A DNA stretch of 64,000 bases from the IMG/VR virus record IMGVR_UViG_3300032236_001530, positions 91,229-155,228 of that record. One strand, written 5' to 3'. Below, one piece after another: positions 2,169-51,137 of this stretch (position 1 is the stretch's first letter; each line of letters begins with the position of its first letter). Made by a program: the position numbers and the translations under genes. The DNA comes from a virus. A model generated the notes under the pieces. The model saw only the letters and a program-made list of their open reading frames with translations. It ran no database searches and was not told where the DNA came from.

Positions 2169-2544
2169 TTTGTCAGATATACCTTTTGTTCATTCCGGTA
2201 GTTATCGAGACGAGTGTAGAGTAAAAGGTAATAAACTACTAACTGAGCTTAATAGAATAAATATTAATATGTCAACTAAACATAATTATATAATCATACC
2301 GGTTAGTATTTATAATCTTTTAGAGATAAATGATAGTTTTATATCTTTAGAAAAGTCCGCTAATACATATGATGGTCCAATTAAAGTTGGCTTGATTGGT
2401 GAGTTTATTTGCTATTTAGATATACATTTACCGCCAAATGAAATTATTGTTTCTTGGGATAGACAAACATCAAGAAATGTTAAATTAGATTCTATATTAA
2501 ATGATACATTTGAAAAAGAAAAAAGAATTAAGGTTATATCTTAA
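2158..2544 (+). CDS. Hypothetical protein (128 aa)
   Basis: Starts with ATG inside the end of the preceding gene and ends 4 bases into the 3' end of the convergent DHH gene. It contains a YIIIPVSIYNLLEI beta-rich stretch and a Lys/Glu-rich C-terminus. I recognise no family. The tight overlaps on both sides support a real gene in a compact phage genome. Confidence 0.6.
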   Translation: MVIDLSDIPFVHSGSYRDECRVKGNKLLTELNRININMSTKHNYIIIPVSIYNLLEINDSFISLEKSANTYDGPIKVGLIGEFICYLDIHLPPNEIIVSWDRQTSRNVKLDSILNDTFEKEKRIKVIS

Positions 2545-4394
2545 TTCTTTTTGTTTATATAGCTTTCAAATTTTGCTATTATTTTCTTGTTTACATTATC
2601 TATAGTCATTAAACTCTTTCTATCTGGTTTCATGCCTTTTGTAGCACCAGCCTTTAAGAATTCATCTCTTGTCACAGGTACTGGTTGTCCAGTCTTTTTA
2701 TCAACTATATTATATTCAAAGTTTTCATTTGTGTCTTGTCCTAATAATTCAACACCTTTTGTGTCGTATTCAACTTCACCACCTTGGTTAGCTATATCTA
2801 TTTTTGATTTTAATACATTAACAAAATCTTTAGCAACTGTTTTAAGAACATCAACATACTTTTCAGTATTATAAGCTATTTTAAGAGCTGGTTTATTATA
2901 CTTTAAGAAGTTGAAACCAGAGATATTTGTAATTGAAGGGTGACCACCTGAGTTTCTAATAATAAGTTCCCATGCAGGTATTTTGATATTACTTAAATAT
3001 GTTTTTTGGTCAGGAGCTAAATCACTAAACGAAACATCCATATACTCTCTCAACTCTGGATTGTTAATATCAACATTAACAATTTTACCATCTTTCTTCT
3101 CATACATACAATCTTTGTAAAAAGCTTCTAAATCAGTCCATCTAAACCCAACACCTTCATAATCCTCACCTTCTGCTTTTTGCATTGCTTTCCAATCTTG
3201 AGATGTTTCAAATTCTTTTTTAAGAGATTCTAATGAAACATAAAATCTTTTTAATACTGATTCATGTTTTGCTAAAACTTCTTTAGCTATTTCACCTAAG
3301 TTAATTTCTTTTAACTTCTTTTCTTTGAATGGATTACAAGAAACTTGTAATAACCCCATTGGCCAAGCAATACAGTTAAAGTCAGCCTCTGGGTTGTTTT
3401 TGAATACCACATATCTATCATATGAACCAGCTTTAATCATATTACCACCACCATATTGAGTAACGATTTTATAATCAGAGTCAAAGTTAACACCTTTGCC
3501 AATTTTAGCGCCAGTTGATAATAGATTTTTATGTCTCCAATTTGTTGGATCATATTCGGTCACATCACCTGTATTTGGATCTTCAATGAAACTATAATTC
3601 TTCATTCTATCAATGTAAGAGTTTAAGTTATCTGTAATTTCTTCAGGTGTTGCTAATCTTCCTAATTTATCAGAAGTTTTAGCATTACTAATATAATGTT
3701 TAATGTTGTTAAACATTGAGTATAAACTACCTGTAGAATCCAAAGTTAAACATTCAAGAATATTTTTATTAATATGATTTCTCTTACCATCTAAAGATTT
3801 AACAGTGATTCTTTTATTTTTATAAGCCAATAATAATCTATTAACTACAAAACCCATCATAAATCTATTCTTAGCTGGTGTTTCAGCTCTATCTTGTGTA
3901 AAGATTGCTTTTTGTACATCTTCTGGTTTGATATTATATGTTAAAAAGTTAGCTGAGTCAACTGTTTTAATTAGTTCAATATCTTGAGGTGTAAAAATAT
4001 CAGAGTATGATATTTCACCAGAAAGTATCTCAACATTTGAACGAGCATGTTTGAAGTATGTTGATTTAGTATCTTCAGCACCAACTTGTTTATCATGATG
4101 ATCTGATTGAATGTGGAACATTGGCTTACCGTGAGCAAAGTCAACTAGCACACAAAGGTTACCCTCTTGGTGATGCTTAATAGCGTATTCTAAACCACCA
4201 TATTGTATAATATGACAATCAACAGTTTCTATTTGATAGTAATTCTTTAAGAATTCTTTCATAGCAATAGCTGATGTAACACCATCTAAGTCTTTGTGGA
4301 AATAAATCTCTGCAGTTTTATGAAGCTTTGCTATCTTAGAAATGTTTTTAAGACCTACTTCCTCGTTTAGGAAATTTTGATATTTTTTTATCAT
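2541..4394 (-). CDS. DHH-family phosphoesterase with N-terminal capsid-targeting-like tag
   Basis: 617 residues. Residues 1-12 are MIKKYQNFLNEE, the tag shared by many proteins in this window, with a possible L-N-E cleavage site. The DHH (RecJ/NrnA-type) metal-binding motifs follow: H33-K-D35-L-D37-G, D85 in L-V-D-F, and D98-H99-H100-D. A GGHP motif near H485 matches the DHHA1 substrate-binding motif. The family hydrolyses phosphodiesters in single-stranded DNA, short oligonucleotides, cyclic dinucleotides or pyrophosphate; the substrate here is unknown. The C-terminus KFESYINKKN resembles a second copy of the tag. It follows the 4396-4809 gene with a one-base gap and probably forms an operon with the two upstream genes. 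Confidence 0.82.
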   Translation of the reverse strand: MIKKYQNFLNEEVGLKNISKIAKLHKTAEIYFHKDLDGVTSAIAMKEFLKNYYQIETVDCHIIQYGGLEYAIKHHQEGNLCVLVDFAHGKPMFHIQSDHHDKQVGAEDTKSTYFKHARSNVEILSGEISYSDIFTPQDIELIKTVDSANFLTYNIKPEDVQKAIFTQDRAETPAKNRFMMGFVVNRLLLAYKNKRITVKSLDGKRNHINKNILECLTLDSTGSLYSMFNNIKHYISNAKTSDKLGRLATPEEITDNLNSYIDRMKNYSFIEDPNTGDVTEYDPTNWRHKNLLSTGAKIGKGVNFDSDYKIVTQYGGGNMIKAGSYDRYVVFKNNPEADFNCIAWPMGLLQVSCNPFKEKKLKEINLGEIAKEVLAKHESVLKRFYVSLESLKKEFETSQDWKAMQKAEGEDYEGVGFRWTDLEAFYKDCMYEKKDGKIVNVDINNPELREYMDVSFSDLAPDQKTYLSNIKIPAWELIIRNSGGHPSITNISGFNFLKYNKPALKIAYNTEKYVDVLKTVAKDFVNVLKSKIDIANQGGEVEYDTKGVELLGQDTNENFEYNIVDKKTGQPVPVTRDEFLKAGATKGMKPDRKSLMTIDNVNKKIIAKFESYINKKN

Positions 4395-4395
4395 A

Positions 4396-4809
4396 TTATT
4401 TTATATAATTTTGATCTGTTTTTCTATATATTAATATATTCAAGTGTTTATTTTCAATGTATTCTTTATGTATATAATAACCTAAATCATCTAATCTTAG
4501 TGATGCAACTTCCATTATTTCTTTATACTCTTCAGAGTTTTTCAAATTGGTAAGTTCATTATTTATTTTCCAAAGACTCTCTTGAAAAGGTCCCCAGTTT
4601 TTACCAATACTAATTTGAATGTAAGTAATTAAAGCAAATTTTAATGCTGATTCATCGGTGTTTTTAAAATCAAATAGTTTTTTTAAAAATCTAACATCAA
4701 CTATCCAACCGTTATCTGATATATCAGTGAATAAAAATTCAATATCTTCAGGTGTTAACTTAGATTCAGGTGATAGATGTATATTTTCAAACTTTTTTAA
4801 GTATTTCAT
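4396..4809 (-). CDS. Hypothetical protein with tag-like N-terminus (137 aa)
   Basis: The N-terminus MKYLKKFENIHLSPE resembles the shared tag, though without a clean [IL]-x-E site. The rest is an alpha-helical soluble protein without recognised motifs. Its start codon touches the stop of the upstream amidoligase-like gene and its stop is next to the start of the DHH gene, so the three are probably co-transcribed from the promoter at 6208-6221. Confidence 0.65.
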   Translation of the reverse strand: MKYLKKFENIHLSPESKLTPEDIEFLFTDISDNGWIVDVRFLKKLFDFKNTDESALKFALITYIQISIGKNWGPFQESLWKINNELTNLKNSEEYKEIMEVASLRLDDLGYYIHKEYIENKHLNILIYRKTDQNYIK

Positions 4810-6203
4810 TATTTCTTACCAAGCAATCCTTTTCCATAACCTTTTATAGTTCCTTTGGTTTCACCTTTAGTCTCGGTGTCAAATTTCGTATCAAAGAAGT
4901 TATTATTATCTGTAACTATTTTAACATCAGCATCCATAGTAGCATAAGGTCCTAATTTACCTGAACGATAAACACCACCAAACATATCACCATTCAAGTA
5001 ACCTTCCATAAAGTAACAACCTGTTAAATCAGAAGATTCTACTTTACAATTAAGAACTTTTGAGTTTTGTGCTGACGATTGTTGTAATTTACATTTTGTC
5101 ATTTGTGAGTTTTTAATCTCTGACCCTACAAAAAAGCAATCTTCAAATATACCCTCAACTTGACAATTTATTAAATCATATCCTTTTAGTGTTGATGTTG
5201 ATTTTATTTTAGCATCAACTATTTCCATTGTTTGTGTTGATGTTACATAGTTTACTATACATTCTTTTAATTCAGATGTTGAATCTATTAAGTTATAGAG
5301 TTTTGAGTATATACTATTATAATATGATGTTACCATATCATAGTTCATATTTTGGTCAATTTGTAATTGAATGGTTGGAAAGTCTATAATAAAGTTATCA
5401 TACTTTGAGAAATTTTTAAATGTAGAAATATTCTTTTCTAAATGTTCTTCAAGTTTATTAACATCCTCCGCATTAAAATCAACATCAATTGCGTCATAAA
5501 CATTAATGATAAATCTGTCCATGAAGTAAATTAAATTACCTATATTCTTTTCATAATCCTTACCACCAACATATCTTAATTCAAGTCTTTGAGAGTCCTT
5601 ATCGTTATTAATATGTAAGAAGTTGATACCGTAGTATTTATCATTTGGTGTTCTTAAATTATTCTTTACAACACTAATTGGGATATTAAAGAAGTCATAT
5701 TCTTTATAAGGAATCATTTTCTTTACTGACTTAGCGTAAACATTATCTTTTCTTGATGGGTAAACTCTATAAATTTCTTCTTCATCAGTATTTAGAATCA
5801 GTTTAAGAATATTCAAATCATTTAGATTCTTATCATCATCATTAAATGATAAGTTAAAGTGAATAGATGATTTTTCATTAGTTTGACCATGTGTTTGAAT
5901 AAATTTAACTATTTTAACTAAATAGTATTTAGCATCATAGTAGCTTAATGGACCAGTTACTAACTCAACCATGTTTGAACCACCTGATAAATCCGGTTCA
6001 ATTTTGAAATTCTTTTCATCTGGTGTGAAACCAGAGTGGTATTCTCTAAATCCCCAAACTTTCACAGGTGCTAACTCTTGGTTTAATAACTCCATTGCTT
6101 TATAGAAAGATAATTCTTTCATATAAAATTCAAATTCAAAGCCAACACGAGCATGCTTTAATTTATTTGATTGGTTTAGAAATTTATCCGAATACTTCTT
6201 CAT
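4809..6203 (-). CDS. Amidoligase-like protein with pentapeptide-like C-terminal repeats
   Basis: 464 residues starting MKKYSDKFLNQS, a degenerate version of the shared tag. Residues 17-120 look like the amidoligase (COOH-NH2 ligase, glutamine-synthetase fold) family: R-V-G-F-E23-F-E25-F, then E-P-D71-L-S-G, M-V-E80-L-V-T-G-P-L, and S-S-I-H115-F-N. The acidic residues would bind Mg-ATP. The C-terminal third (about residues 335-410) repeats short units of the N-C-x-V/F-x-x type, like a right-handed beta helix of pentapeptide repeats. Members of the family join amino acids or peptides through new amide bonds; the substrate here is unknown. First gene of a three-gene minus-strand operon. Confidence 0.62.
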   Translation of the reverse strand: MKKYSDKFLNQSNKLKHARVGFEFEFYMKELSFYKAMELLNQELAPVKVWGFREYHSGFTPDEKNFKIEPDLSGGSNMVELVTGPLSYYDAKYYLVKIVKFIQTHGQTNEKSSIHFNLSFNDDDKNLNDLNILKLILNTDEEEIYRVYPSRKDNVYAKSVKKMIPYKEYDFFNIPISVVKNNLRTPNDKYYGINFLHINNDKDSQRLELRYVGGKDYEKNIGNLIYFMDRFIINVYDAIDVDFNAEDVNKLEEHLEKNISTFKNFSKYDNFIIDFPTIQLQIDQNMNYDMVTSYYNSIYSKLYNLIDSTSELKECIVNYVTSTQTMEIVDAKIKSTSTLKGYDLINCQVEGIFEDCFFVGSEIKNSQMTKCKLQQSSAQNSKVLNCKVESSDLTGCYFMEGYLNGDMFGGVYRSGKLGPYATMDADVKIVTDNNNFFDTKFDTETKGETKGTIKGYGKGLLGKK

Positions 6204-6207: not shown

Positions 6208-6221
6208 CTTATATATTAAAA
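6208..6221 (-). promoter_or_regulatory. Late-type promoter candidate (minus strand)
   Basis: On the minus strand it reads TTTTAATATATAAG, 4 bases before the ATG at 6203. It matches the element repeated before many genes in this window. Confidence 0.55.
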
Positions 6222-20177: not shown

Positions 20178-20870
20178 ATGAAACACTTAAAGAATTTTCA
20201 ATTATTTGAATCTAAAAAAGAAGAGCCTTCTAAAAAGTCTCAAGAAATGATCGATGCTTTTAAGAAAAAGTATGGTACTGAATTAGATGAAAAATTTGAT
20301 GTTGACCAAATAAAATTGATTGAAAGTGCTTTTGAATTTTTTGATAAAAAGTTTATCAAAAATAAAATTGAAAAAATAATACTTGATGACTTGGGTGGTG
20401 TTCATGGTAGATGGTCGGAAACAAAGACTAAAAAACAAATGACACTTAATCCTTCTATATTCAAATTCAAAAAAGAGTTTGAGAATGGTTCTAAAGATAT
20501 CCCTTATAAAGAGTTTGTTATTGTTCATGAGATAGGTCATTGTGTTGACCATGTTGAAAGAGTTTCTTATTCTAAAACATGGCAAGCTATCTCTGGTTGG
20601 AAAAGACTAGATAGAGATAAACCCGTTCCAGAAGGATATGTTAGATATGTGGAAGAAAGAAAAGGTAGAGAAATAGCTGGTCCTAAAAAATCAAACTGGA
20701 TTCATAAAAAAGATGCTTTTTTCTGTAGAAAATATACTTCTAGAAATCCAAGAGAAGATTTTGCGGATTGTTTTGCGTTTGGTGTGTTTGGTGATTGGGA
20801 TAGATTCAAAGGTGAAGGTGGTGAAAAGAAAATGGCTATTATTAAAGCCACATTAAAGAAAGTAGATTAA
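20178..20870 (+). CDS. Zincin-type metalloprotease with capsid-targeting-like tag
   Basis: 230 residues. The N-terminus MKHLKNFQLFESKKEE matches the shared tag, with an L-F-E possible cleavage site. H117-E-I-G-H121 is the zinc-binding and catalytic motif of gluzincin/metzincin-like peptidases (V-I-V-H-E-I-G-H). The third ligand is probably the Glu or Asp of R-E-D-F-A-D-C-F-A-F-G near the C-terminus, an arrangement common in phage and bacterial zincins. Its substrate is unknown. If the tag works as in T4, this protease would be packaged in the head and could reach the host cytoplasm with the DNA. It overlaps the convergent gene by 4 bases. Confidence 0.75.
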   Translation: MKHLKNFQLFESKKEEPSKKSQEMIDAFKKKYGTELDEKFDVDQIKLIESAFEFFDKKFIKNKIEKIILDDLGGVHGRWSETKTKKQMTLNPSIFKFKKEFENGSKDIPYKEFVIVHEIGHCVDHVERVSYSKTWQAISGWKRLDRDKPVPEGYVRYVEERKGREIAGPKKSNWIHKKDAFFCRKYTSRNPREDFADCFAFGVFGDWDRFKGEGGEKKMAIIKATLKKVD

Positions 20871-21517
20871 TCTAAATCAGCGGCTTGAACCGTATCTTTA
20901 TTGTAAATATAGATTATAATATTAGATATCTTTTCACCTTCTAATAAATCCAATAAATCATCAATATCTGTTGAAGTCTTTGTTAATGATATAGTTTCTG
21001 TTTCTCTCATTTCTTTAGATTTTGTTACTTTCATAGTAAACTCAGCATCTAACATTTTTAATTTACCCTGAACATCTAATAAATCCTCAACTATTTCTTC
21101 ATTTGTGTTATATTTAATACTAACTATATCGACAACAAAAGCACCAAAGTCAAAGTTACCAGAATCTTCAACGTCATCTGTTCTATCTAACAAAGGTTGG
21201 ATACAATCCATTATATCTCTATAATCAACATTTATATTAAAAGCTTGTAGGAATGATTCTTGAGAACCGTCGTGTATTTCATATTGGAAATAATCTTTAT
21301 AATCTTCTTCTACTTGGTCAATAAATTGGTCAAGAAGTGATTTTGTTTTACTCGTAAAAACACCATTACCTGGTCCTTGAACATTTGATTGTAGATTAGA
21401 TTCAATATGATCTATTAAAGGTTTGAATATCTCTTCCCAATCAACCGGATTTGTAAGTGGGCTCATTTCACGAGTTTCACTTTTAGTTTCTAATATAAGT
21501 TTAGAGAATTTTTTCAT
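20867..21517 (-). CDS. Hypothetical protein with capsid-targeting-like tag (216 aa)
   Basis: The N-terminus MKKFSKLILETKSE fits the shared tag, with an I-L-E site. The rest is acidic and helical, with runs of Asp/Glu/Leu (D-D-L-L-D-L-L-E-G-E) and no known motif. It has its own promoter at 21521-21534. A packaged head protein is inferred only from the tag. Confidence 0.65.
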   Translation of the reverse strand: MKKFSKLILETKSETREMSPLTNPVDWEEIFKPLIDHIESNLQSNVQGPGNGVFTSKTKSLLDQFIDQVEEDYKDYFQYEIHDGSQESFLQAFNINVDYRDIMDCIQPLLDRTDDVEDSGNFDFGAFVVDIVSIKYNTNEEIVEDLLDVQGKLKMLDAEFTMKVTKSKEMRETETISLTKTSTDIDDLLDLLEGEKISNIIIYIYNKDTVQAADLD

Positions 21518-21520: not shown

Positions 21521-21534
21521 TTTATATATTAAAT
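21521..21534 (-). promoter_or_regulatory. Late-type promoter candidate (minus strand)
   Basis: Reads ATTTAATATATAAA on the minus strand, 3 bases before ATG 21517. Confidence 0.55.
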
Positions 21535-21543: not shown

Positions 21544-21975
21544 CTATTTCTCGTTTAAGATTTGATTTATTATTTGTTCTCTTTTCATTAATGGATCTTC
21601 TACAAAAACGCCTCTAATCATATAGGATTGATTTTGAGAAATATTTGGCGCATTAGAAACAACATCGTTTGTAATCATAATGTTATACAGTACAAAGAAA
21701 TTATTGGGATTATTAGACATTAATATCTTAAAATCACCAATTGTGTCACATTTGTACGATAAACAAGTATAATTTCTTCCTTTGAACTCAAATGCTGGTG
21801 ATTCAGATATGAAATAAACTCTATCTTCTATATAATTAGCTATTTCAAACAAAATAGATGGTTCAATTACAGATTGAAAGGGTGAAAAATTCATACTATT
21901 TGATGTCTTTTTACAAACTTCTTCATTTATTTTTACAACTCTTTCTTCTTTAGTTAAATGTGAAACTTGTATCAT
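21544..21975 (-). CDS. Hypothetical protein (143 aa)
   Basis: Soluble protein starting MIQVSHLTKEERVVKINEEV. It begins two bases after the stop of the clpP gene on the same strand, so the two are probably one transcript. No known motif. Co-transcription with a protease subunit makes an adaptor or regulator possible, but nothing in the sequence proves it. Confidence 0.6.
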   Translation of the reverse strand: MIQVSHLTKEERVVKINEEVCKKTSNSMNFSPFQSVIEPSILFEIANYIEDRVYFISESPAFEFKGRNYTCLSYKCDTIGDFKILMSNNPNNFFVLYNIMITNDVVSNAPNISQNQSYMIRGVFVEDPLMKREQIINQILNEK

Positions 21976-22747: not shown

Positions 22748-23083
22748 ATGAAAACTACAATAGAAATTAAAGGTTATCAAATAGTTATTGACGAAACTGA
22801 AGAAATGGTTACCGTTACTGCTATGAAAGATGACGAAACTGTAGAGGAATTTACTTTAGATTTAGGTGAAGAAGCTCAAGGTGAAGAAGAAGCTCAAGGT
22901 GAAGAAGGTATCAAATCATTTGATGATTTTGGTGGTGAAGAAGAAGACTTCGGTGATGAAGAAGATGAAGAAGGAATGGAAGATGAAGAATCTGAAGAAG
23001 GCGCTCAAGAAATGGAAGATGGTGAAGAGGAAGAAGAATCTAAATTAGAATCATTCCAATCTTTTATCAATAAAAAGAAGTAA
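22748..23083 (+). CDS. Highly acidic protein with C-terminal tag-like motif (111 aa)
   Basis: Residues 1-40 form a short beta-rich domain. The rest is dominated by Glu, Asp and Gly. G-I-K-S-F-D-D-F appears in the middle and L-E-S-F-Q-S-F-I-N-K-K-K closes the protein; both look like the tag seen at the N-terminus of other proteins. Very acidic small proteins are typical of phage prohead cores (T4 gp67, for example), so a scaffold or core role is a reasonable guess. It lies 9 bases upstream of the HAD-like gene and shares its promoter. Confidence 0.65.
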   Translation: MKTTIEIKGYQIVIDETEEMVTVTAMKDDETVEEFTLDLGEEAQGEEEAQGEEGIKSFDDFGGEEEDFGDEEDEEGMEDEESEEGAQEMEDGEEEEESKLESFQSFINKKK

Positions 23084-32641: not shown

Positions 32642-33121
32642 TTATTTACCGAATTTCTTTAGTCTTGTATGTCTGTAACTTTTAGACTCAAACTTTTCTT
32701 CTTCCTCTTCACTATTCATCATCTCTTCTTCATTATCCATCTCGTTTTCTTCAACTTCATGATGACTGTGTGTATGTTCAGGTGTTGTTGATTTCTCTAA
32801 ATAGTTAACAACTTCTTCAGCTGTTTTAAATTTCTTATTATCAACGTGAAAGCTTTCAGTTTCTGAGAAGAAGTTAATAGTCTTACCATCGTGTTCAATC
32901 TTATTATCTATAACTTCAGTACCAAGCATTTCTGCTAACTCAGCCATTTTCTTTTGACCTTCGTATTCACCACCTTCTTCTTCAGGAAGTTCTGATTCTT
33001 CCATTTCAGTGTTATCCATTTCTGTTTCATGCATATCCATTTCTGGTGCTTCAACTTCATGTTCCATTTCGAAGTCCTCATTTACTTTACCTTTTACAAA
33101 GTCTGTATATCTTTTAATCAT
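32642..33121 (-). CDS. Acidic protein with capsid-targeting-like tag (159 aa)
   Basis: Starts MIKRYTDFVKGKVNEDFE (tag, with a possible V-N-E site). It is extremely rich in Glu, Met and His, with a central ordered block (about 58-105: K-M-A-E-L-A-E-M-L-G-T-E-V-I-D, then F-F-S-E-T-E-S-F-H-V-D) and His-rich T-H-S-H-H-E. The C-terminus is basic and contains F-E-S-K-S-Y, another tag-like stretch. Acidic proteins of this type often belong to the prohead core. Own promoter at 33155-33167. Confidence 0.65.
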   Translation of the reverse strand: MIKRYTDFVKGKVNEDFEMEHEVEAPEMDMHETEMDNTEMEESELPEEEGGEYEGQKKMAELAEMLGTEVIDNKIEHDGKTINFFSETESFHVDNKKFKTAEEVVNYLEKSTTPEHTHSHHEVEENEMDNEEEMMNSEEEEEKFESKSYRHTRLKKFGK

Positions 33122-33154: not shown

Positions 33155-33167
33155 GTATATATTAAAT
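33155..33167 (-). promoter_or_regulatory. Late-type promoter candidate (minus strand)
   Basis: ATTTAATATATAC on the minus strand, about 33 bases before ATG 33121. Confidence 0.5.
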
Positions 33168-33679
33168 TATAAATCTTTATTTTTTTCACTTTCTAATTCA
33201 CCTACAACATAATCTAAAAATGAATCTAATTCATATTCCAGGCCATTACAAAACTCAAACACATCATATGATTCTTCATTTGGTTTTTTAGACACTGAAT
33301 AAAAATCTGGTGATATTTGATTACTATTAAAAACAACTATTCTACCCTCTAATCTACCTTCAATTCTTTTACCACTTGGGAATACTAAGTCTGGTACATA
33401 CAAAGTGCCTATATAATGCACCTCATCACCATAATCTTCTGTTTCGGTGTGTTCAAATTTGAAATATCCATTATCATCTTCAAATACTCTCTCACTTTCA
33501 TCAACAATCATCTTATTATGAACTTCTTCTTGATTTCCTGACTTATGCGCATTTAGAAAATCTCTTTCATCATCTCGCAATGAAGACATTCCATATTTAG
33601 ATATTTTATCCAATATGTCATCTACTCTTTGTTGAGCTGTATATCCTTCATATCTCATTAGATGTTTCATAATAATCAT
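33167..33679 (-). CDS. Hypothetical protein with tag-like start and Bacteroidota-type helical motif (170 aa)
   Basis: From ATG 33670 the start is M-K-H-L-M-R-Y-E-G-Y, tag-like. The motif V-D-D-I-L-D-K-I-S-K-Y-G (about 19-30) followed by L-R-D-D-E-R-D-F-L matches a short helical hairpin that I know from C-termini of Bacteroidota rhomboid-type proteins (DUF6576-like) and that is also at the end of the 52338-52970 protein. The rest is beta-rich and ends Lys/Glu-rich. No function assigned. Confidence 0.62.
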   Translation of the reverse strand: MIIMKHLMRYEGYTAQQRVDDILDKISKYGMSSLRDDERDFLNAHKSGNQEEVHNKMIVDESERVFEDDNGYFKFEHTETEDYGDEVHYIGTLYVPDLVFPSGKRIEGRLEGRIVVFNSNQISPDFYSVSKKPNEESYDVFEFCNGLEYELDSFLDYVVGELESEKNKDL

Positions 33680-33698: not shown

Positions 33699-34127
33699 TC
33701 AATCATCACTTTTTCTAACCTCAATTTTCCAAGCTCCTCCTGATTTTACAACTCTATTGTCATTATATTCTGTTAATTGTAAATATGGTGCTGTCGGTTT
33801 GTAATTATTTATAACTTTCTCTCTAATAGCTTGATATAATATGTCTATGCCAATTCCATCAGCTTGGTAAATACATATGTAATTATTATCTATATCTTCC
33901 CAGTCAAAATCAGAATATTCTGTGTTATTGATAACTGATTTTATTTTATTATCTCTATTATATTTTTGTACTTCTTTTATCCAACTATCCATAAAACAAT
34001 AAATGAACCCATCGGATCCATCTTTACTATGTTTAATTAAAATATCAAAGTCAACACCGTCGTAAAAACGAATGCTTACTCCTTTTTGTTCTACTTCCTC
34101 AATCAAGGTCATCAAATATATCATCAA
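33699..34127 (-). CDS. Hypothetical protein (142 aa)
   Basis: Overlaps the end of the upstream 34099-34329 gene by 29 bases. Soluble, Asp/Ile-rich, with V-S-I-R-F-Y-D-G-V-D-F-D and G-I-G-I-D-I-L-Y-Q-A-I-R. Ends with TGA. No family recognised. Confidence 0.6.
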   Translation of the reverse strand: MMIYLMTLIEEVEQKGVSIRFYDGVDFDILIKHSKDGSDGFIYCFMDSWIKEVQKYNRDNKIKSVINNTEYSDFDWEDIDNNYICIYQADGIGIDILYQAIREKVINNYKPTAPYLQLTEYNDNRVVKSGGAWKIEVRKSDD

Positions 34128-34329
34128 TTTTTTTGTCTCTTACTTCAGACTTATGCAATTCTATGACTTTTTTATGAAAAAGTTCATCATTTTCAAATCT
34201 GTACTTGAAGTCTTCAAATGAACTACTGCTCATTTTTAATAATGCAAGAGATCCTTTTGATATTTTACTCTCATTTAATCTATCATTTAAGTAGTCTATG
34301 TAATAAGGATATATTTCATCATTTTTCAT
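34099..34329 (-). CDS. Hypothetical protein (76 aa)
   Basis: Short helical protein whose C-terminus E-V-R-D-K-K-I-D-D-I-F-D-D matches the C-terminus of the 28087-28425 protein. Ends in TGA inside the next gene. Function unknown. Confidence 0.55.
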   Translation of the reverse strand: MKNDEIYPYYIDYLNDRLNESKISKGSLALLKMSSSSFEDFKYRFENDELFHKKVIELHKSEVRDKKIDDIFDDLD

Positions 34330-34361: not shown

Positions 34362-35141
34362 ATGATTAAAAAATACTCAAGTTATATTAATGAATCTGAT
34401 GACCAAAGAGTTTATTTAGATGACAACCAAAAAGGCCCAGGCTTTTATACCAATAAATATGGTCCTAATTCTATTGCTAATTTGAATCAGAAGATTTATA
34501 ACTATATTCATCAAGTATATGGTCCTTTAGGATTTTCTTATCCTCGTAAAGGTACTGTAGCTAATTATGATGTAACTGTAAATGGTGAGTTAATAAGTGG
34601 TGAGTATATATCTAAAATGGTTAATAACTACACTATATTCAAAACATTTATTAGAGAGAATAAAATCAAAGATGAAAATACATTTTATACCCTTTTAGAA
34701 TCTAAATTTGATGATGTTTATCACTATAATGGTAGTTTCTTCAAAAGACAGACTTTACCTATTTTAATAAACACAACTAGAAAAGGAAATAGTAACGAAA
34801 TTAGATGTAAACAGAAATTTATTGAATTTGCTAATACAAAAAATCTAAATATAGTTATAACAGATCCTACGGTTGCTGAAGATGTTGATGGTGTAGATGC
34901 TAAGTTTGTACACAATGGTAGAACATTCACTATTCAAATCAAACCATTTAGTGAGTACAAAACTATAGGTGATAAATTATACGCTAAGTCAGCTGGTTCT
35001 TTATCAGTTGGTTCTGTTAATTATTTAATGCTTTATTCAGCTACTGAATATTTAATAATTAAAAATGTATCTACAGACCCAATAAAAATAAAAGGTGATG
35101 TTTTCATCGCCTCTTTATCAAGTGTTATTTATAAAGATTAA
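34362..35141 (+). CDS. PD-(D/E)xK-like nuclease with capsid-targeting-like tag
   Basis: 259 residues. MIKKYSSYINESDD at the start is one of the clearest tags, with an I-N-E cleavage candidate. Residues 145-195 fit a restriction-endonuclease-like core: E146 in a helix, D-G-V-D179-A-K-F on a strand, then T-F-T-I-Q192-I-K194 on the next. The usual (D/E)-x-K is Q-x-K here, a known variation. Outside this core I see no specific family. If packaged and injected, it could attack host DNA or another element early. It overlaps the convergent polymerase gene by 4 bases. Confidence 0.62.
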   Translation: MIKKYSSYINESDDQRVYLDDNQKGPGFYTNKYGPNSIANLNQKIYNYIHQVYGPLGFSYPRKGTVANYDVTVNGELISGEYISKMVNNYTIFKTFIRENKIKDENTFYTLLESKFDDVYHYNGSFFKRQTLPILINTTRKGNSNEIRCKQKFIEFANTKNLNIVITDPTVAEDVDGVDAKFVHNGRTFTIQIKPFSEYKTIGDKLYAKSAGSLSVGSVNYLMLYSATEYLIIKNVSTDPIKIKGDVFIASLSSVIYKD

Positions 35142-37186: not shown

Positions 37187-37585
37187 TTATTTAATTTGAT
37201 TTAAAACAGGAACAAATGGCACAACTATTGGTTTTAAAGTATCTTTTGTAGAGGAATCTTTAATTTTTACCGGATGTTGTGTATGTAATAAAGAAGAATC
37301 AAATCTATGAAAGTTATCTTTTTTGATAAGAATTTTAGATGTTGTGTCTGGTTGATTAATATCTTTAATAACCTTGTTCAAAGAGTCTATAATAGAATTT
37401 CTTCTGATAGCGATTTCTTGTGTATTTGATAAATCCTGTCTGATGGTTGTTATCATTTCATGATTATAAGAAATATCATTATATAAATTAGTTATCCAAA
37501 CCGATAAACCTATACATAAAAAAAATAACCAAGAAACTGCACTTCTGTTTCTTTTAAGAGCTTTTCTGTCGTTTCTGCCTAACAT
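37187..37585 (-). CDS. Single-pass membrane protein, possible i-spanin
   Basis: 132 residues. A basic N-terminus (R-K-A-L-K-R-N-R) precedes one membrane segment (about 18-33, S-W-L-F-F-L-C-I-G-L-S-V-W). An outside helical region and a Pro/Val-rich tail follow. This N-in topology with an outer coiled region is like inner-membrane spanins, but no spanin partner is adjacent, so the role is a guess. It overlaps the upstream gene by 7 bases. Confidence 0.55.
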   Translation of the reverse strand: MLGRNDRKALKRNRSAVSWLFFLCIGLSVWITNLYNDISYNHEMITTIRQDLSNTQEIAIRRNSIIDSLNKVIKDINQPDTTSKILIKKDNFHRFDSSLLHTQHPVKIKDSSTKDTLKPIVVPFVPVLNQIK

Positions 37586-37947
37586 AGTATATTATTAATT
37601 ATTGTTTCTCTATTTTCTAATTTCAAGAAGTTAATAAAATCTTCTAACCACATTTGTTTACCTTCAATTCCACTATCCATTCTAAATCTAAAGTCAGAAG
37701 ACTTGAATAGTTCAAATTTAGATCTTAAGTATTTACCAATATGGTTTGAATATTTAAATGGATCATCTGGATTATCAGAATAGATAAAATCAATCTCATT
37801 AAATCTTTCATCAAATAACATTTGAAATGATGAATGATCAGTTTCCACTAAACATCTTCTTACCTCACGAACTTCTTGGCCACCACCATCATTATAAAAA
37901 ATAGTAGTATTACCTTCCGATATGTGAAATTTGTGTTTATAATCCAT
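37579..37947 (-). CDS. Hypothetical protein (122 aa)
   Basis: Soluble protein, Phe/Asp/Glu-rich, starting MDYKHKFHISEGN. No motif recognised. The next base region upstream holds a remnant of the clamp gene end (37968-38000). Confidence 0.58.
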   Translation of the reverse strand: MDYKHKFHISEGNTTIFYNDGGGQEVREVRRCLVETDHSSFQMLFDERFNEIDFIYSDNPDDPFKYSNHIGKYLRSKFELFKSSDFRFRMDSGIEGKQMWLEDFINFLKLENRETIINNILC

Positions 37948-38946: not shown

Positions 38947-38960
38947 TTTTAATATATAAG
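38947..38960 (+). promoter_or_regulatory. Late-type promoter candidate
   Basis: TTTTAATATATAAG two bases before ATG 38963. Confidence 0.55.
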
Positions 38961-38962: not shown

Positions 38963-39526
38963 ATGATTAAAAAATGGAATGAGTTTATTAGAGAATTTGT
39001 AGAAAGTGAAAGTTATATTGATGCTAAAATGCAAGAGTTGAAAGACCTTGTTGACGGCGCAACTGATGGTAATAACATAATCTACGAATGGGAAAATAAA
39101 AATGACCACGAATTAACGGTTACTTTTTCAATGGGTGAATTATCTATCAGATATGACTTTGACATTGATGATTTACATGTAACTAAAACAGCTGGTGGTA
39201 AAATAGACTTTCAGAATAATGTTGAGTCTATTGATGAAGGCTTGGAAATCATAGAAAAGGATATTCAATCTATTTTAGGTATATCAGAATCAAGAAAGGG
39301 TAGACCAAAAGCTCAAAGATATAAGGGTCGCAAAATACCTGGAAAATATCTAACTAAGAATCCTGGTAAAATGAAAAAAGAAATTGACACATTCAGAGGT
39401 AAGAAAGAATATAAAAAAGACTGGGATGCCGACTACACATCTGGTAAAGGTGGAGAAGGCAAAAGAGTTAAAACTAAAAAATCTGCTGCTACAAAAGCAT
39501 ACCAAAGAATGTTTGGTGATAAATAA
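38963..39526 (+). CDS. Tagged protein with basic C-terminal half (187 aa)
   Basis: MIKKWNEFIREFVESES is a clear tag (F-I-R-E). Residues 20-105 form a mixed alpha/beta domain. Residues 110-187 are highly basic (G-R-P-K-A-Q-R-Y-K-G-R-K and K-R-V-K-T-K-K-S-A-A-T-K-A), as expected of a nucleic-acid-binding tail. T4 internal proteins are likewise small and basic and travel with the DNA. Function unknown; it forms an operon with the next gene (14-base gap). Confidence 0.65.
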   Translation: MIKKWNEFIREFVESESYIDAKMQELKDLVDGATDGNNIIYEWENKNDHELTVTFSMGELSIRYDFDIDDLHVTKTAGGKIDFQNNVESIDEGLEIIEKDIQSILGISESRKGRPKAQRYKGRKIPGKYLTKNPGKMKKEIDTFRGKKEYKKDWDADYTSGKGGEGKRVKTKKSAATKAYQRMFGDK

Positions 39527-39540: not shown

Positions 39541-39870
39541 ATGAAATACTTATTAACATTTGAATCTTTATTTGAAGATTACTCAAAGTTTATAACCGAA
39601 GAAGATATTAATGAATCTAAAGATTCTGGTGTAACTGCTTCATTAAAAAAGAAATCAAAAGCATCTGGAATTCCAGTTGGTATTTTAAGAAAAGTATTTT
39701 CTAAAGGAATGCAAGCTTGGAACGCTGGTCACAGACCGGGTGTAGCTCAACACCAGTGGGCTTTTGGAAGAGTAAACTCATTTATTACTGGTGCTGGTGG
39801 TGCTAGAAAAGCTGACGCTGATTTATGGACTAAAGCGAAAGCCGCAAAAGCTAGAAAGAAAAAGAAATAA
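39541..39870 (+). CDS. Tagged DUF5824-like basic protein (109 aa)
   Basis: The N-terminus MKYLLTFESLFEDYSKF and the following F-I-T-E-E-D-I-N-E contain several possible [IL]-x-E sites. Residues 30-100 (S-L-K-K-K-S-K-A-S-G-I, then G-M-Q-A-W-N-A-G-H-R-P-G, Q-W-A-F-G-R-V-N-S-F, K-A-D-A-D-L-W) match a small conserved phage domain that I believe is DUF5824. The tail is Lys/Ala-rich. Unknown role; basic charge and tag suggest a head protein that binds DNA. Ends at a terminator. Confidence 0.7.
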   Translation: MKYLLTFESLFEDYSKFITEEDINESKDSGVTASLKKKSKASGIPVGILRKVFSKGMQAWNAGHRPGVAQHQWAFGRVNSFITGAGGARKADADLWTKAKAAKARKKKK

Positions 39871-44132: not shown

Positions 44133-44146
44133 TTTAATATATATAC
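44133..44146 (+). promoter_or_regulatory. Late-type promoter candidate
   Basis: TTTAATATATATAC, four bases before ATG 44151. Confidence 0.55.
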
Positions 44147-44150: not shown

Positions 44151-45281
44151 ATGATAAAAGGGTATAATGGTTTTTTATTACAACAATTAAAGGCAGAGTT
44201 ATTTTCATTAAATGAAGACATCTTGTATGCATCTAGCGAGCTTATGGTAAAATTAAAAAAGATGGCTGAGATGGATGATAAAGTTGGTGAAATAGCAAAT
44301 GCTATTGTTGATACTATTGAGTCCGAAGATTGGTTTCCAGATGTCGATACTAAACAGAACTTTTTTGATGTAACTGATAAAGAAGATTTTATATCTTTTT
44401 TACCATCTAATAAAGTACCAAAAGATTGGGACCAAGATGATGATCCTGCTTTACCATATAACTCAAAAGGTAGAAGTGAAGTTAAAGTTGGTAAACTTGT
44501 AAGAGCTTTACTTAAAATTGCTGATATTTCAGATAGAGTAGATTCTTCTATAAATGATAAAGATTATGAGGATTTTGTAAATGCTTTCAAATCTCTTAAA
44601 GTTGATACATCTAGAGAATTTAGATTAGTTAACGGTGAAGATATTCACAAATATTATCAAATGAAGAACTATTATTCAAGTCATGGTTCTTTAGGTGGTT
44701 CTTGTATGGCTGATGAAGGTAAAAATACATTCAGAGTTTATACAGAAAATCCAAGAAAAGTTCAATTACTTATTTTAATTGATAGTGATGATAAAATACA
44801 CGGTCGTGCTCTTGTTTGGAAGTTAAAAGAATCTCCTTGTGAAGCTAAATACTTTATGGATAGAGTTTATACTAATGCTGACTCTGATGTAATTAAATTC
44901 AAAGCTTTTGCTGAAGAAAAAGGATTCCTTTATAAACAAAAGAATAATAGTTATGTTGAAGATAACATTAAGTTTATGTATAAAGGCAAACCTTTAATGG
45001 GTGAAGTCAAAGTGAAATTAGACGGTGACTTCAAGAATTATCCATTCATTGATACTATGTGCTTCTTGAGTAAGAAAATGGGTGATTTATCAAATATACC
45101 ATCAAAAGATTGTTACTTCTTACATTCTGTTTCTGGTGATTGTGAAGTGTGTGATAGATGTAATGGTAAGATAATAGAAGAAGATGGAGATTTCTGTAGT
45201 GAATGTGGTTCAGGTATCGAACAGTTAGAAAAATCTGGTATCAAAACTAAAATTGGTGAGAAATTAAAAGATAAAGAATAA
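44151..45281 (+). CDS. Tagged protein with zinc ribbon, paralogue of 26242-28104
   Basis: 376 residues from ATG 44151, chosen over the TTG at 44106 because the tag starts there and the promoter lies between. MIKGYNGFLLQQLKAELFSLNED is a looser tag with an L-N-E site. Residues about 155-255 form the domain shared with the 26242 protein (G-E-D-I, L-G-G-S-C-M, N-P-R, G-R-A-L-V-W-K-L, F-M-D-R-V-Y-T). A C-terminal four-cysteine zinc ribbon (C-E-V-C-D-R-C, F-C-S-E-C-G-S-G) is unique to this copy. Function unknown. Confidence 0.66.
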   Translation: MIKGYNGFLLQQLKAELFSLNEDILYASSELMVKLKKMAEMDDKVGEIANAIVDTIESEDWFPDVDTKQNFFDVTDKEDFISFLPSNKVPKDWDQDDDPALPYNSKGRSEVKVGKLVRALLKIADISDRVDSSINDKDYEDFVNAFKSLKVDTSREFRLVNGEDIHKYYQMKNYYSSHGSLGGSCMADEGKNTFRVYTENPRKVQLLILIDSDDKIHGRALVWKLKESPCEAKYFMDRVYTNADSDVIKFKAFAEEKGFLYKQKNNSYVEDNIKFMYKGKPLMGEVKVKLDGDFKNYPFIDTMCFLSKKMGDLSNIPSKDCYFLHSVSGDCEVCDRCNGKIIEEDGDFCSECGSGIEQLEKSGIKTKIGEKLKDKE

Positions 45282-46293: not shown

Positions 46294-46902
46294 TTAGTTT
46301 TGAAAGTTATTGAAGCTTTTTATACCACTCATTTCTTCTTCATCTTGCATTTCTTCAGATTCTTCTTCATCTTGCATTTCTTCTTCCATTTCATTATCAT
46401 CCATCATTTCATGTTCGTCCATTTCGTGCTCCATATCGTGTTCAGGATTTTCATGACCAGCTAAGAAATCAAATACTTGCTCTAAGTTTTCAGTAGCAAC
46501 AGAGATATGATCAGAAGCCCAATCATGTTCCATTAAGATAGCATCGATATCTTCACGATCCATAGCTAACAACTCATCAACAAGTCTTTTCATTGTTTCT
46601 AAGTTACCAAAAAACATATAGTTACCTTCTTCTTGGTGTTCTTTTAATGATTTTAATGTTTTAGCTAAATTTAATCTCTTATATTTAGTAGCATCTTTTT
46701 TACCTAATTGAGCACCTGGCTTATTAGGATCTTTATCTTTAGCTTTTAATTTAGCTAATTCGGCATTAATCTCTGATTTAGAGATTTTCTCACCTTCTTT
46801 TTTACCCATAGACTTTTTCAAAGCACCTGGATTTTTGATAGCATCTTGGATCCATTTTTCACCTTTTGCTTCATTAAATGAATTAAATGATTTAATACTC
46901 AT
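46294..46902 (-). CDS. Tagged KWIQ-domain protein with acidic C-terminus (202 aa)
   Basis: The N-terminus M-S-I-K-S-F-N-S-F-N-E-A is a short tag with F-N-E. Residues 15-85 contain E-K-W-I-Q-D-A-I-K-N-P-G-A-L-K-K and a basic helical stretch R-L-N-L-A-K-T-L, a pattern found in many small phage proteins. Residues 150-195 are almost only Glu, Asp, Met and His. The last ten residues, G-I-K-S-F-N-N-F-Q-N, repeat the N-terminal tag, so the protein has tag copies at both ends. Confidence 0.65.
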   Translation of the reverse strand: MSIKSFNSFNEAKGEKWIQDAIKNPGALKKSMGKKEGEKISKSEINAELAKLKAKDKDPNKPGAQLGKKDATKYKRLNLAKTLKSLKEHQEEGNYMFFGNLETMKRLVDELLAMDREDIDAILMEHDWASDHISVATENLEQVFDFLAGHENPEHDMEHEMDEHEMMDDNEMEEEMQDEEESEEMQDEEEMSGIKSFNNFQN

Positions 46903-46923: not shown

Positions 46924-46937
46924 TTATATATTAAATT
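46924..46937 (-). promoter_or_regulatory. Late-type promoter candidate (minus strand)
   Basis: AATTTAATATATAA on the minus strand, 21 bases before ATG 46902. Confidence 0.55.
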
Positions 46938-46952: not shown

Positions 46953-48113
46953 TTACTTTAATACTGTAACTACTTCTGGGTAGTATTCTGCAATTTCTGG
47001 ATTTTTACCATCATAGTTTATATCAGAAAGTACATACCTCATAGCATTTAATCTACCTATCTTTTTATCATTTGAGTTAATAATAACCCAAGGTGACATT
47101 CTACTTGATGTTTTTGTAAACATTTGGTTTTTGAAGTTACCTATTACTTCCCACTTGTCTAATACTTTAGCATCATTTGGTGAGAATTTCCAATACTTTA
47201 AAGGACTTTGTTGTCTTAGCTCAAATCTTTTGATTTGTTTTTCCTGTGTGATAGAAAACCAGAACTTAATTAGTATTAAACCATTACTTATTAAATCTTC
47301 TTCCCAATCAACAACTTTATCCATAAAGTCTTTATATTGTTCTTCTGTGCAGTAACCCATAGCGGGTTCAACAACAGCTCTATTATACCAACTTCTATCA
47401 AAGAAAACTATTTCACCTGGTTTAGGTAAATGCTTTTCATATCTTCCAAACCAATTTTTCTTTTCTTCTTCGGTTGGTAGACCTAAAGCCACAACTTTAA
47501 ATCCTTTTGGATTCAAATATTCTGTAAATCTTTTAATTGTTGAGCCTTTACCAGCAGAATCTCTACCTTCAAATACAATAGCTACTCTTTTTTGGTTCTT
47601 AATAACCCATTCTTGTAATTTTAATAACTCAACTTGTATTTGGTATTTTTCAGATTCATATTGTTTTCTTGGAAGAATCGAGCCTTCACCACCTGGTATC
47701 TCAAATTGTTCACCAGATTCAGGTTCACCAGCATTTTTTACTTGTTGAATTCTTTCTTCAATTGATTGATAATACTCATCAAATGCTTCTCTTACTTTTC
47801 TTTTAGTATTTCTTTTTCTTAGTTCTAAAATCTGATTTACTTTTCTAAGAAATGCTTCTACGTTTAACTCTTGAATAAATTCTAATGTATATTCATTTGT
47901 TAATTCTCTCATTATAACTTTAATATCAATTTTATCAAAGTTTTTATATTCTATTTTATTAGTAAGTGTGTTATAATGTATATTGGCTAATATGTATGTA
48001 CGATATTCATTAAGTCTAAACATAAAATGTTCTTTTGTAGACTTTAAAGTTGCATCATCTAGTTTAGAGATACTTATTTCTTCATTAATAAATTTATTAA
48101 AATCGAATATCAT
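46953..48113 (-). CDS. ppk2: Polyphosphate kinase 2 (PPK2) with capsid-targeting-like tag
   Basis: 386 residues. MIFDFNKFINEEIS is a clear tag with F-I-N-E. Residues 13-150 are a helical extension not found in typical PPK2. The core has Walker A G183-R-D-S-A-G-K-G190, the E-E-K-K-N-W-F lid, F-F-D239-R-S-W-Y-N-R-A-V-V-E-P and G-Y-C-T. PPK2 enzymes transfer phosphate between polyphosphate and nucleotides, for example to make GTP or ATP from diphosphates. Whether the phage copy makes nucleotides or polyphosphate is unknown. Own promoter at 48132-48143. Confidence 0.92.
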   Translation of the reverse strand: MIFDFNKFINEEISISKLDDATLKSTKEHFMFRLNEYRTYILANIHYNTLTNKIEYKNFDKIDIKVIMRELTNEYTLEFIQELNVEAFLRKVNQILELRKRNTKRKVREAFDEYYQSIEERIQQVKNAGEPESGEQFEIPGGEGSILPRKQYESEKYQIQVELLKLQEWVIKNQKRVAIVFEGRDSAGKGSTIKRFTEYLNPKGFKVVALGLPTEEEKKNWFGRYEKHLPKPGEIVFFDRSWYNRAVVEPAMGYCTEEQYKDFMDKVVDWEEDLISNGLILIKFWFSITQEKQIKRFELRQQSPLKYWKFSPNDAKVLDKWEVIGNFKNQMFTKTSSRMSPWVIINSNDKKIGRLNAMRYVLSDINYDGKNPEIAEYYPEVVTVLK

Positions 48114-48131: not shown

Positions 48132-48143
48132 TTATATATTAAA
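48132..48143 (-). promoter_or_regulatory. Late-type promoter candidate (minus strand)
   Basis: TTTAATATATAA on the minus strand, 18 bases before ATG 48113. Exact consensus. Confidence 0.6.
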
Positions 48144-49890: not shown

Positions 49891-49911
49891 GTTTTTTAGT
49901 TAGTCAGCTAA

Positions 49912-50091
49912 TTACTTAGCAGCTTTAACAGCTGTATCAACTGCTTTTGTAGCTGTTGTATCAACAGATTTTGCTGTTGTGTCAACTGCTACCTTAGTAG
50001 AGTCAGATGTTGAAGTTGAAGTTTTTTCAGCTCCGCTACCGCAAGAAGCTAAAATTGCTGATGCTAAAAGCACGAACGCGATTTTTCTCAT
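49912..50091 (-). CDS. Small lipoprotein (59 aa)
   Basis: Frame from ATG 50091. The signal peptide M-R-K-I-A-F-V-L-L-A-S-A-I-L-A-S-C ends in a lipobox (L-A-S-C17), so the mature protein is lipid-anchored. The rest is Thr/Ala/Ser/Lys-rich with repeats of the V-D-T-T/A-V-K type. It could be an outer-membrane spanin partner, a superinfection-exclusion lipoprotein or a surface decoy. Ends at the terminator. Confidence 0.7.
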   Translation of the reverse strand: MRKIAFVLLASAILASCGSGAEKTSTSTSDSTKVAVDTTAKSVDTTATKAVDTAVKAAK

Positions 50092-50224
50092 AATTGTTGT
50101 TTTTTTTGTTTTGTTTTTAATTATTAAAGTTATTGAATATTATATATCATTTTTTTATTCTTTTGTTTTAAAAAGTAGTAAAATATTTTTTATATATACT
50201 ACAATACAAATATACAAAAGATTT

Positions 50225-50425
50225 ATGAAACACCTAAAAAAATATGAAAGTTTTGAATTGGCTCAAGAAGAAATTGATCCAAAACCAAGCTATTACTACA
50301 GTTGTGATGAATGTGATAACATCTGGAAAGATGACGAAGAATGTAAGTCTTGTAAACACTGTGATTCTGATGAAATAGAGGAATTACATGAAGAAGAGTG
50401 GAATGAATTAAATAAATCAAAATAA
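50225..50425 (+). CDS. Tag-like small zinc-ribbon protein (66 aa)
   Basis: From ATG 50225: M-K-H-L-K-K-Y-E-S-F-E-L-A-Q-E-E is tag-like. Two cysteine pairs (C-D-E-C and C-K-S-C-K-H-C) form a zinc ribbon. The C-terminus is acidic. It lies in the same frame as a longer open frame that starts in the lipoprotein region, but the ATG with the tag is the likely start. The next gene starts one base after its stop. Confidence 0.6.
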   Translation: MKHLKKYESFELAQEEIDPKPSYYYSCDECDNIWKDDEECKSCKHCDSDEIEELHEEEWNELNKSK

Positions 50426-50426
50426 T

Positions 50427-51137
50427 ATGTCAATTAACAATAGAGAAGATGCTAATAAGTATTACCAAATGATTAATGATTTGGTGGATGAATATACTGA
50501 AAAGAATAAGATTAGACCTTCTAACCTTAAAAGATACTTACAACCTGGTTCTGAAAGATTTAATAGATTCTTAGAAAGAAATAAACTTAAAGATATCAAA
50601 GGTGCTTCTATTATATTAAAAGATATAATTGAAGATAGAGAAAGTATGGAAAAGGATGGTGTTATTACTTTTGAATCTTTTAAAATGTTTGAGTCAGAAG
50701 AATTCAAAATTCATTCTATGAAACAGTGTCTTTATAAAGGTATTGAAAAGGCTACTCAACAAATGGAAAAAGTATTAGCCGATCATTTTGATACTAATTT
50801 AGGTGATATTGATATTGTTGACGCTGATAAACACATATTCAAAATTAGCGATTGGAATAATCATGATGTTCAAGTTGTTATTTATTCTAAAGAAGAAATG
50901 GATGTTATTTTAACAAATATAGTTGAGCATTTATATGGTGAGCTTTCTAAAAAGAAAATTGAATTATCTCAACACATTTCTATTGAACTTTCTGATTTAA
51001 TTAAAGAAGACGCTTTTACTACTAAAATTGAAAATATCTTAACAGGAGATTTAGCTAAAAAACTTATAAGTGATTGTTTAGACAATGGTTTCAATTTCAA
51101 AGATGAGTTTAAAGGTTATTTTATCTGGATTTCTTAA
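50427..51137 (+). CDS. Hypothetical protein with internal tag-like motif (236 aa)
   Basis: Helical N-terminal 75 residues (Y-Y-Q-M-I-N-D-L-V-D-E-Y, R-Y-L-Q-P-G-S-E-R-F), then I-T-F-E-S-F-K-M-F-E-S-E-E-F at about 79-92, which looks like the tag in an internal position. A second domain with beta strands and helices follows (about 95-236). If the protein is cut after an F-x-S-E type site, the C-terminal domain would be released. Coupled to the zinc-ribbon gene upstream. Confidence 0.6.
   Translation: MSINNREDANKYYQMINDLVDEYTEKNKIRPSNLKRYLQPGSERFNRFLERNKLKDIKGASIILKDIIEDRESMEKDGVITFESFKMFESEEFKIHSMKQCLYKGIEKATQQMEKVLADHFDTNLGDIDIVDADKHIFKISDWNNHDVQVVIYSKEEMDVILTNIVEHLYGELSKKKIELSQHISIELSDLIKEDAFTTKIENILTGDLAKKLISDCLDNGFNFKDEFKGYFIWIS

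Follow-up and report, generated by a model that had tools for sequence, protein, structure and literature searches.

An N-terminal tag resembling the T4 capsid-targeting sequence on numerous unrelated proteins of Mahaphage-clade huge phages

The internal proteins of bacteriophage T4 enter the prohead core by means of a sequence of 10–20 residues that is removed by the protease gp21, and in the T-even phages these diverse defence proteins have this targeting sequence as their sole common feature (PMC3012670, PMC5694885). A comparable theme is seen in the SPN3US/phiKZ-like giants, where N-terminal propeptides are cut from internal head proteins by the prohead protease (gp245 in SPN3US, with the motif A-x-E) and many ejection proteins are found (PMC5694885, PMC10052503). 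The object of the present study is a short N-terminal tag of T4-like appearance, which recurs on proteins encoded in a 64,000-nucleotide stretch of viral DNA, henceforth the window, and in the huge phages related to it. The window comprises bases 91,229–155,228 of a 155,228-bp viral contig (IMG/VR record IMGVR_UViG_3300032236_001530). An earlier note on the window had counted about sixteen such proteins and had read the tag as a capsid-targeting sequence.

The points of likeness to T4 (IPI, IPII, IPIII and Alt, with the gp21 protease and the gp22 core) are that soluble proteins of otherwise unrelated sequence begin with a short peptide, that this peptide ends in [IL]-x-E ahead of Ala or Ser, and that, in the relatives of the contig, an S77-type protease is encoded between the portal and major capsid genes. 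Unlike T4, which has a handful of tagged proteins, the phages considered here have about 25–85 true cases per complete genome; their scaffold is fused to the protease and includes copies of the tag motif in tandem, and the tag occurs in three forms. With SPN3US they share the cutting of internal head proteins, here predicted, but the SPN3US propeptides are mostly 111–254 residues long, occur on about 8 proteins and have no short common tag. The Methylophilales phage Melnitz-3, of the Kyanoviridae, offers another parallel, with consecutive genes starting MQGFKTFLSEA, MINFSKYITED and MKKFSELTSEL and with DUF5824 and deoxyribonucleotidase-like genes nearby; in comparison with the Mahaphages it has few tag-like starts within the 10 kb examined. 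The class of mechanism is already known, and the novelty lies in the scale, in the fusion of the protease to a scaffold made of tag-motif repeats, and in the prospect that the packaged proteome is perhaps readable from sequence. Among open-licence full texts we found no publication describing such a tag set.

The contig is a fragment of a huge phage of the Mahaphage clade, to which Al-Shayeb et al. assigned the largest genomes and for which Bacteroidetes hosts were predicted (PMC7162821). The UvsW-like helicase encoded in the window is 81% identical to the proteins of LR745206 (634,780 bp) and LR756502 (642,428 bp), 52% to that of LR756504 (636,363 bp), 44% to that of LR756501 (735,411 bp) and 36% to that of LR756500 (462,018 bp). 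The window carries tail and fibre genes, but profiles of gp21 and gp23 found no match anywhere in the 155-kb contig and recognisable head genes are absent, from which we conclude that it is a fragment; were the complete genome similar in size to those of its closest relatives, the contig would cover roughly one quarter of it. The genes of the relatives used throughout are simple open reading frame (ORF) calls rather than curated annotations.

Distribution and separability of the tag

Three related forms of the tag were recognised: a long one, K-x-[FY]-x-x-[FY]-[IL]-x-E; a mid form, L-K-x-[FY]-x-[IL]-F-E/S; and a short form, L-K-x-[FY]-N-E/S (a slash here and below follows the Glu after which cutting is predicted). 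Fixed patterns for these forms match 29 of the 230 N-termini of the contig, against 1.2 expected when identical patterns are applied at internal Met residues (Poisson P ~7e-30); shuffle controls were also run. The earlier count of sixteen was thus too low, since most of the tagged genes of the contig are located in the 91 kb to the left of the window. In the relatives of 462–735 kb the matches number 94 of 974 in LR756502 (8.8 expected), 34 of 927 in LR756504 (7.8 expected), and 80 of 1020 and 37 of 671 in two others (10.7 and 6.5 expected); subtraction of the expectation from the raw 94, 80, 37 and 34 leaves about 85, 70, 30 and 26 true tagged proteins per genome. With a cross-trained profile, whose long form was learned on other genomes and whose mid and short forms were learned on LR756502, 35 of 233 contig N-termini exceed the 99th percentile of the internal-Met null, where 2.3 would be expected, and 26 exceed the 99.9th, where the expectation is 0.23. 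As a positive control, the patterns recover ipII and ipIII of T4, both starting MKTYQEFIAE/A. The internal-Met and shuffle controls, together with the cross-trained profile, rule out chance or a start-codon artefact as the origin of the tag.

The proteins that follow the tag are for the most part unrelated, as the earlier note had claimed: once the tag is removed, 338 tagged proteins, a set that contains some chance pattern matches, fall into 293 BLAST clusters (E<1e-4), the biggest of which has 16 members. Were the tagged proteins diverged paralogs of one family, with the tag as a remnant of common ancestry, the few small families and the seemingly duplicated runs of MKHLKxYNES genes would be readily explained. 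This clustering nevertheless leads us to reject a single paralogous family as the source of the tag, and we regard such an ancestry as most improbable. Moreover, the domains behind the tags are diverse, including PPK2, DHH phosphoesterase, T4 Rnl1-type RNA ligase, methyltransferase, T4-type lysozyme and a HAD-like domain with a DWDDN motif, and several of them have untagged homologues. The HAD-like protein is tagged in the contig (MVKKFNQYISESNSDYLLYYAFDWDDN), in LR756502, in LR756501 and in six IMG/VR contigs, and its LR756504 homologue is untagged (MKNYLIYDWDDN); the RNA ligase has the tag in LR756502 and lacks it in LR756504 and LR756501; and a nucleotidyltransferase-like protein likewise has a homologue without it.

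The family of 16, which includes the products of 26242–28104 and 44151–45281 of the window, has 16 tagged members in the scanned genomes, is found at as many as 15 loci of a single genome and displays an invariant Cys within an S-C-M motif; its homologue in Cellulophaga phage phi38:1 is untagged. AlphaFold gave a model of low confidence for the 44151 protein (mean pLDDT 55); compared by Foldseek with the PDB, this model matched GNAT acetyltransferases best (E ~0.02), a weak lead towards a possible GNAT-like fold.

The codons of the tag vary synonymously as its residues are kept, with the Glu, for instance, encoded by GAA 32 times and by GAG 19 times, and therefore selection acts at the level of the peptide. 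This bears on a second alternative, namely that the shared start is an expression cassette, in which recombination spread the late promoter, the start region and the first codons as one block and the encoded peptide has no function of its own. In line with such copying, the sequence AATATATA often stands 12–18 nt ahead of the tagged ATG and several tags within one genome are near-identical. The synonymous variation makes a cassette of DNA alone unlikely, structural genes share the element without the tag, and tagged orthologs retain the tag despite differing flanks; we accordingly give the cassette very little credence.

Protease, scaffold and probable late expression

Each of the six relatives searched has a gp21-type protease of the S77 family encoded near gp23, and the expected catalytic His, Ser and Asp columns are invariant in an alignment of the proteases of four huge phages. 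Hence the earlier suggestion of a gp21-like protease beyond the window is borne out in the relatives, but none was recognised in the 155-kb contig. The T4 gene order is portal, 67, 68, 21, 22 and 23, and in the huge-phage relatives 21 and 22 appear as a single protein, a protease-scaffold fusion. In LR756502, LR756504 and LR756501 the central part of this fusion is an array of 14-residue units (e.g. NIAYSEYIAENLDK), and about 10 or more YxEY[ILV]AE repeats are seen in the scaffold from these three genomes and from 53 metagenomic sequences; in LR756500 the array is degenerate. In counts of internal [FYW]xx[FYW][ILV]xE copies the fusion tops its genome, with 11 in LR756502, 11 in LR756504 and 14 in LR756501, the runners-up having 2, 2 and 7. 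The 53 distinct metagenomic fusions have 11–13 matches each to a slightly looser pattern, one or two of them outside the regular array. A profile built from the scaffold repeats only also picks out N-termini in excess of expectation: 9 against 2.3 in the contig, 25 against 6.7 in LR756500, 25 against 10.2 in LR756501 and 21 against 9.7 in LR756502.

The aromatic residues and the Glu of the tag stand in the same register as those of the T4 IPII/IPIII signal (TYQEFIAE/A) and of the T4 gp23 sequence FGSFLTE/A, where this protein is cut after residue 65 during maturation. T4 gp22 contains DSIFE/S and AELFE/S, similar to the mid form of the tag, and the capsid proteins of the relatives have SINE/N near the N-terminus. 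In the long and mid forms P3 is mostly Ile, Leu or Val and P1' is often Ser, Ala or Asn, the most frequent residues after the tag Glu; since the search patterns demand Glu its frequency is not independent evidence, and P1' is unselected in the long and short forms.

An upstream sequence is also shared by many of the tagged genes. The sequence TTAATATATA occurs at 22 sites in the window (e.g. 6705, 20163, 34347 and 48133), with 1.85 expected, with two favoured spacings to the start codon, one of about 13 nt and one of about 30 nt. By reading of the gene list, 12 of these sites precede units with a tagged gene, 5 precede tail or fibre genes (6735, 12903, 16048, 24236 and 54250), which are untagged, and the remaining 5 precede other genes; the polymerase, clamp-like, NAMPT and 43153 genes lack the element. 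Among promoter-proximal genes of LR756502, AATATATA is present upstream of 77% of the tagged, 29% of the other and 4% of the genes with the C-terminal motif described below, and over a slightly shorter upstream stretch tagged genes differ from the others with P ~1e-6, a descriptive value, as the element was chosen after inspection of upstream sequences. ATATATA-type sequences precede the LR756502 portal, protease and capsid genes as well. The T4 late promoter TATAAATA was also considered as the shared element and showed no enrichment ahead of tagged genes, AATATATA being found instead. The sequence TTAATATATA is likely to be a late-promoter element of the Mahaphage clade.

The reading of the tag as a T4-like capsid-targeting sequence has passed each test available by computation, and we consider it probable that it is indeed of the T4 type, is cut after [I/L]-x-E and serves a very large set of cargo. 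What we infer for the tagged proteins is a course of docking, cleavage, packaging and injection. Late in infection they would be made from genes bearing the late-promoter-like element, and the tag would carry each of them into the prohead core. The docking site would likely be the repeat region of the gp21-gp22 fusion: the scaffold units carry the tag motif, and therefore the tag would join the assembly in the manner of a stray repeat. Next would come cleavage by the gp21-type protease after Glu in the scaffold, the major capsid protein and the cargo, upon which the scaffold would be destroyed and the released cargo would remain with the DNA, probably to be delivered into the next host cell. 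Injection with the DNA is suggested by analogy with T4 IPI and Alt.

Several points weigh against this reading. The short form (FNE/S) has Phe or Tyr at P3 instead of Ile or Leu. The contig has no head genes of its own, so that the protease is known from relatives alone. The overlap of scaffold and tag profiles is modest (2–4 fold) and is weak in LR756504 (14 against 9.3); the scaffold repeats arose by tandem duplication from one ancestor, so their copies are not independent; and the pattern used to count internal motif copies also has 7 matches in tape-measure-like repeats of LR756501. The element TTAATATATA also stands ahead of a few non-structural genes (UvsW, primase). Tenacibaculum phage PTm1 (3 of 310 N-termini against 1.5 expected, hence no enrichment) and Cronobacter phage GAP32 (11 against 5.4, not convincing) encode gp21-type proteases yet have no clear tag set. 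Since GAP32 has no convincing enrichment, the virion proteome published for CBB, a GAP32-like phage (PMC5259590), is unusable as a test, and a virion proteome was found for no phage of the Mahaphage clade. Finally, a few of the tagged proteins are unusual as cargo, such as, in LR756502, a lysozyme of the T4 type and a membrane protein of the PQ-loop type.

This unusual cargo and the presence among the tagged proteins of enzymes that could work inside the infected cell (PPK2, RNA ligase, methyltransferase) would also be compatible with the tag being a docking peptide for some other late structure, such as tail, baseplate, membrane or replication body, its likeness to a T4 cleavage site being coincidental. 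This we hold to be unlikely. The Glu is near-invariant and is then followed mostly by Ser, Ala or Asn, the register equals that of the T4 internal proteins and the gp23 site, and the motif is repeated in the protease-scaffold fusion. Tagged proteins are also poorer in strongly hydrophobic, transmembrane-like segments, which are found in 2–6% of them and in 9–18% of other proteins.

The absence of the tag from the polymerase and NAMPT, as reported in the earlier note, holds, and extends to the larger relatives, where the T4 homologues of LR756502 and LR756501 among the core replication, terminase, portal and tail-sheath proteins are almost all untagged. Exceptions among T4 homologues occur in LR756502, where the RNA ligase and the lysozyme are tagged, and in the contig, where a Nudix-like protein is; the matches of the LR756501 helicase and of the contig's 144195 protein look like chance. 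An AAA ATPase of LR756502 (183589) has a tag-like start, MKIKKYQAFYEAF, which was not counted as a match among the T4 homologues.

If capsid targeting is indeed the role of the tag, the virions of some of the largest phages would hold dozens to about 100 cargo proteins, in comparison with about 50 head proteins in SPN3US-like giants. The tag would then convert a genome sequence into a list of predicted packaged proteins, give a function class to many unassigned proteins and indicate where the counter-defence and host-takeover enzymes of huge phages are to be sought. A scaffold of tandem tag motifs further suggests a simple rule of cargo recruitment, which could serve to load enzymes into phage heads.

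Tagged and tag-like genes of the window

All sixteen starts listed in the earlier note exist, although about four lack the terminal Glu and two use an internal ATG, namely that at 33670 (-), in ORF 33167–33679, and that at 50225 (+), in ORF 49979–50425. Seven are close matches to the strict form. The DHH-family phosphoesterase at 2541–4394 (-) starts MIKKYQNFLNE/EVG (Pfam DHH E=4.7e-5, slightly short of the curated cut-off), has the LR756502 ortholog MLRKYGQFINEEV and is preceded by TTAATATATA at 4425–4434 (-). The HAD-like protein at 23093–24142 (+) starts MVKKFNQYISE/SNS, and the member of the 16-member family at 26242–28104 (+), with TTAATATATA at 26226, starts MKFLSSYLDFIFE/AVT. The profile also recognises MIKKYSSYINE/SDD at 34362–35141 (+), with TTAATATATA at 34347. 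MIKKWNEFIRE/FVE, at 38963–39526 (+), has the LR756502 ortholog MIKKWGDFIREFV and TTAATATATA at 38949. The polyphosphate kinase 2 at 46953–48113 (-) (MIFDFNKFINE/EIS; Pfam PPK2 E=7e-79; TTAATATATA at 48133–48142 (-)) has a linker between the tag and the kinase domain (149–370), and retains the tag in LR756502 and LR756501. The seventh, one residue shorter, is MSIKSFNSFNE/AKG of the acidic protein at 46294–46902 (-), with TTAATATATA at 46925–46934 (-).

About five starts are variants. These belong to a metalloprotease-like protein at 20178–20870 (+) (MKHLKNFQLFE/SKK; weak PHROG metallo-protease match; profile p=0.0003; TTAATATATA at 20163); a protein of unassigned family at 20867–21517 (-), MKKFSKLILE/TKS, found by the profile and with TTAATATATA at 21523–21532 (-); an acidic protein at 32642–33121 (-), MIKRYTDFVKGKVNE/DF, with TTAATATATA upstream at 33156–33165 (-); a DUF5824 protein at 39541–39870 (+), MKYLLTFESLFE/DY (Pfam E=2.3e-14), which is the second gene after that at 38963 and whose DUF5824 region is present in Kyanoviridae phages; and a small protein at 50225–50425 (+), MKHLKKYESFE/LAQ.

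In the remaining starts, about four, the match is weak and the Glu is missing. One, MKKYSDKFLNQ, belongs to a protein with a pentapeptide-repeat-like C-terminal part at 4809–6203 (-), preceded by TTAATATATA at 6210–6219 (-); its LR756502 counterpart is of equal length and starts MKKYSEKFLNQ. The second gene of the same unit, at 4396–4809 (-), reads MKYLKKFENIHLS (profile p=0.009; LR756502 ortholog MRYLKYFEDLEEN). A DUF6576 protein at 33167–33670 (-) reads MKHLMRYEGYTA (Pfam E=2.1e-7; profile p=0.003), with AATATATA upstream. The last, MIKGYNGFLLQ, starts the paralog of the 26242–28104 protein at 44151–45281 (+), with TTAATATATA at 44134. Its tag seems decayed rather than false, because a close relative in a related contig starts MIKKYNSFLLE/S (MIKKYNSFLLES).

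Besides these sixteen, a very acidic protein at 22748–23083 (+), with TTAATATATA at 22718, has an internal IKSFDDFGGEE and the C-terminus LESFQSFINKKK, in which Lys stands where the cleavable Glu would be. Being in one unit with the tagged gene at 23093, it is a candidate prohead-core protein, and in related contigs the nucleotides ahead of the gene for the HAD-like ortholog encode a C-terminus of similar sequence. Tag-like C-termini are also seen in the 46294–46902 protein, SGIKSFNNFQN, ending SFNNFQN, and in the DHH protein, KFESYINKKN, where Lys again replaces the cleavable Glu; in all three proteins these may possibly be uncut, core-binding versions of the tag. From their composition, one might guess that the acidic proteins with tag-like motifs (22748, 32642 and 46294) are core components comparable to T4 gp67. 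Also in this region, a ClpP-like serine protease gene at 21978–22634 (-) is untagged and without TTAATATATA.

A C-terminal motif and other recurrent sequences

A second motif, R[DEQN]x[KRI][LI]xx[ILFM], is found at the C-terminus of 27 of 230 contig proteins (0.3 expected), 114 of 974 in LR756502 (1.3 expected) and 27 of 927 in LR756504 (0.9 expected); in the window it marks the genes at 21544–21975, 28425–28661, 34099–34329 and 37579–37947, all on the minus strand. In the contig and LR756502 the bodies of these proteins are unrelated to one another. The C-terminal motif and the N-terminal tag coincide in 2 proteins of LR756502 against 12.8 expected (P=8e-5) and in none of the contig against 4.0 (P=0.01), and genes with the C-terminal motif lack the AATATATA element, as shown by the 4% given above. 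We tentatively propose, with rather less assurance than would make it our expectation, that about a fifth of the proteome is sorted by two largely exclusive terminal tags. The N-terminal one, mimicking the scaffold-repeat unit, would mark late head cargo; the C-terminal one (R[DE]xK[LI]xx[IL], about 12% of proteins, no late element) would mark a different destination in the infected cell.

Other recurrent sequences were encountered in individual relatives. In LR756501 (735 kb), 90 different proteins contain DPYGEE, in most cases with W after one further residue; the motif may lie at the N-terminus, internally or at the C-terminus, and 27 of the proteins are N-tagged. In LR756500 (462 kb), 11 proteins have NADDFGFFDN or a variant of it at or near the C-terminus, and 7 of them are N-tagged.

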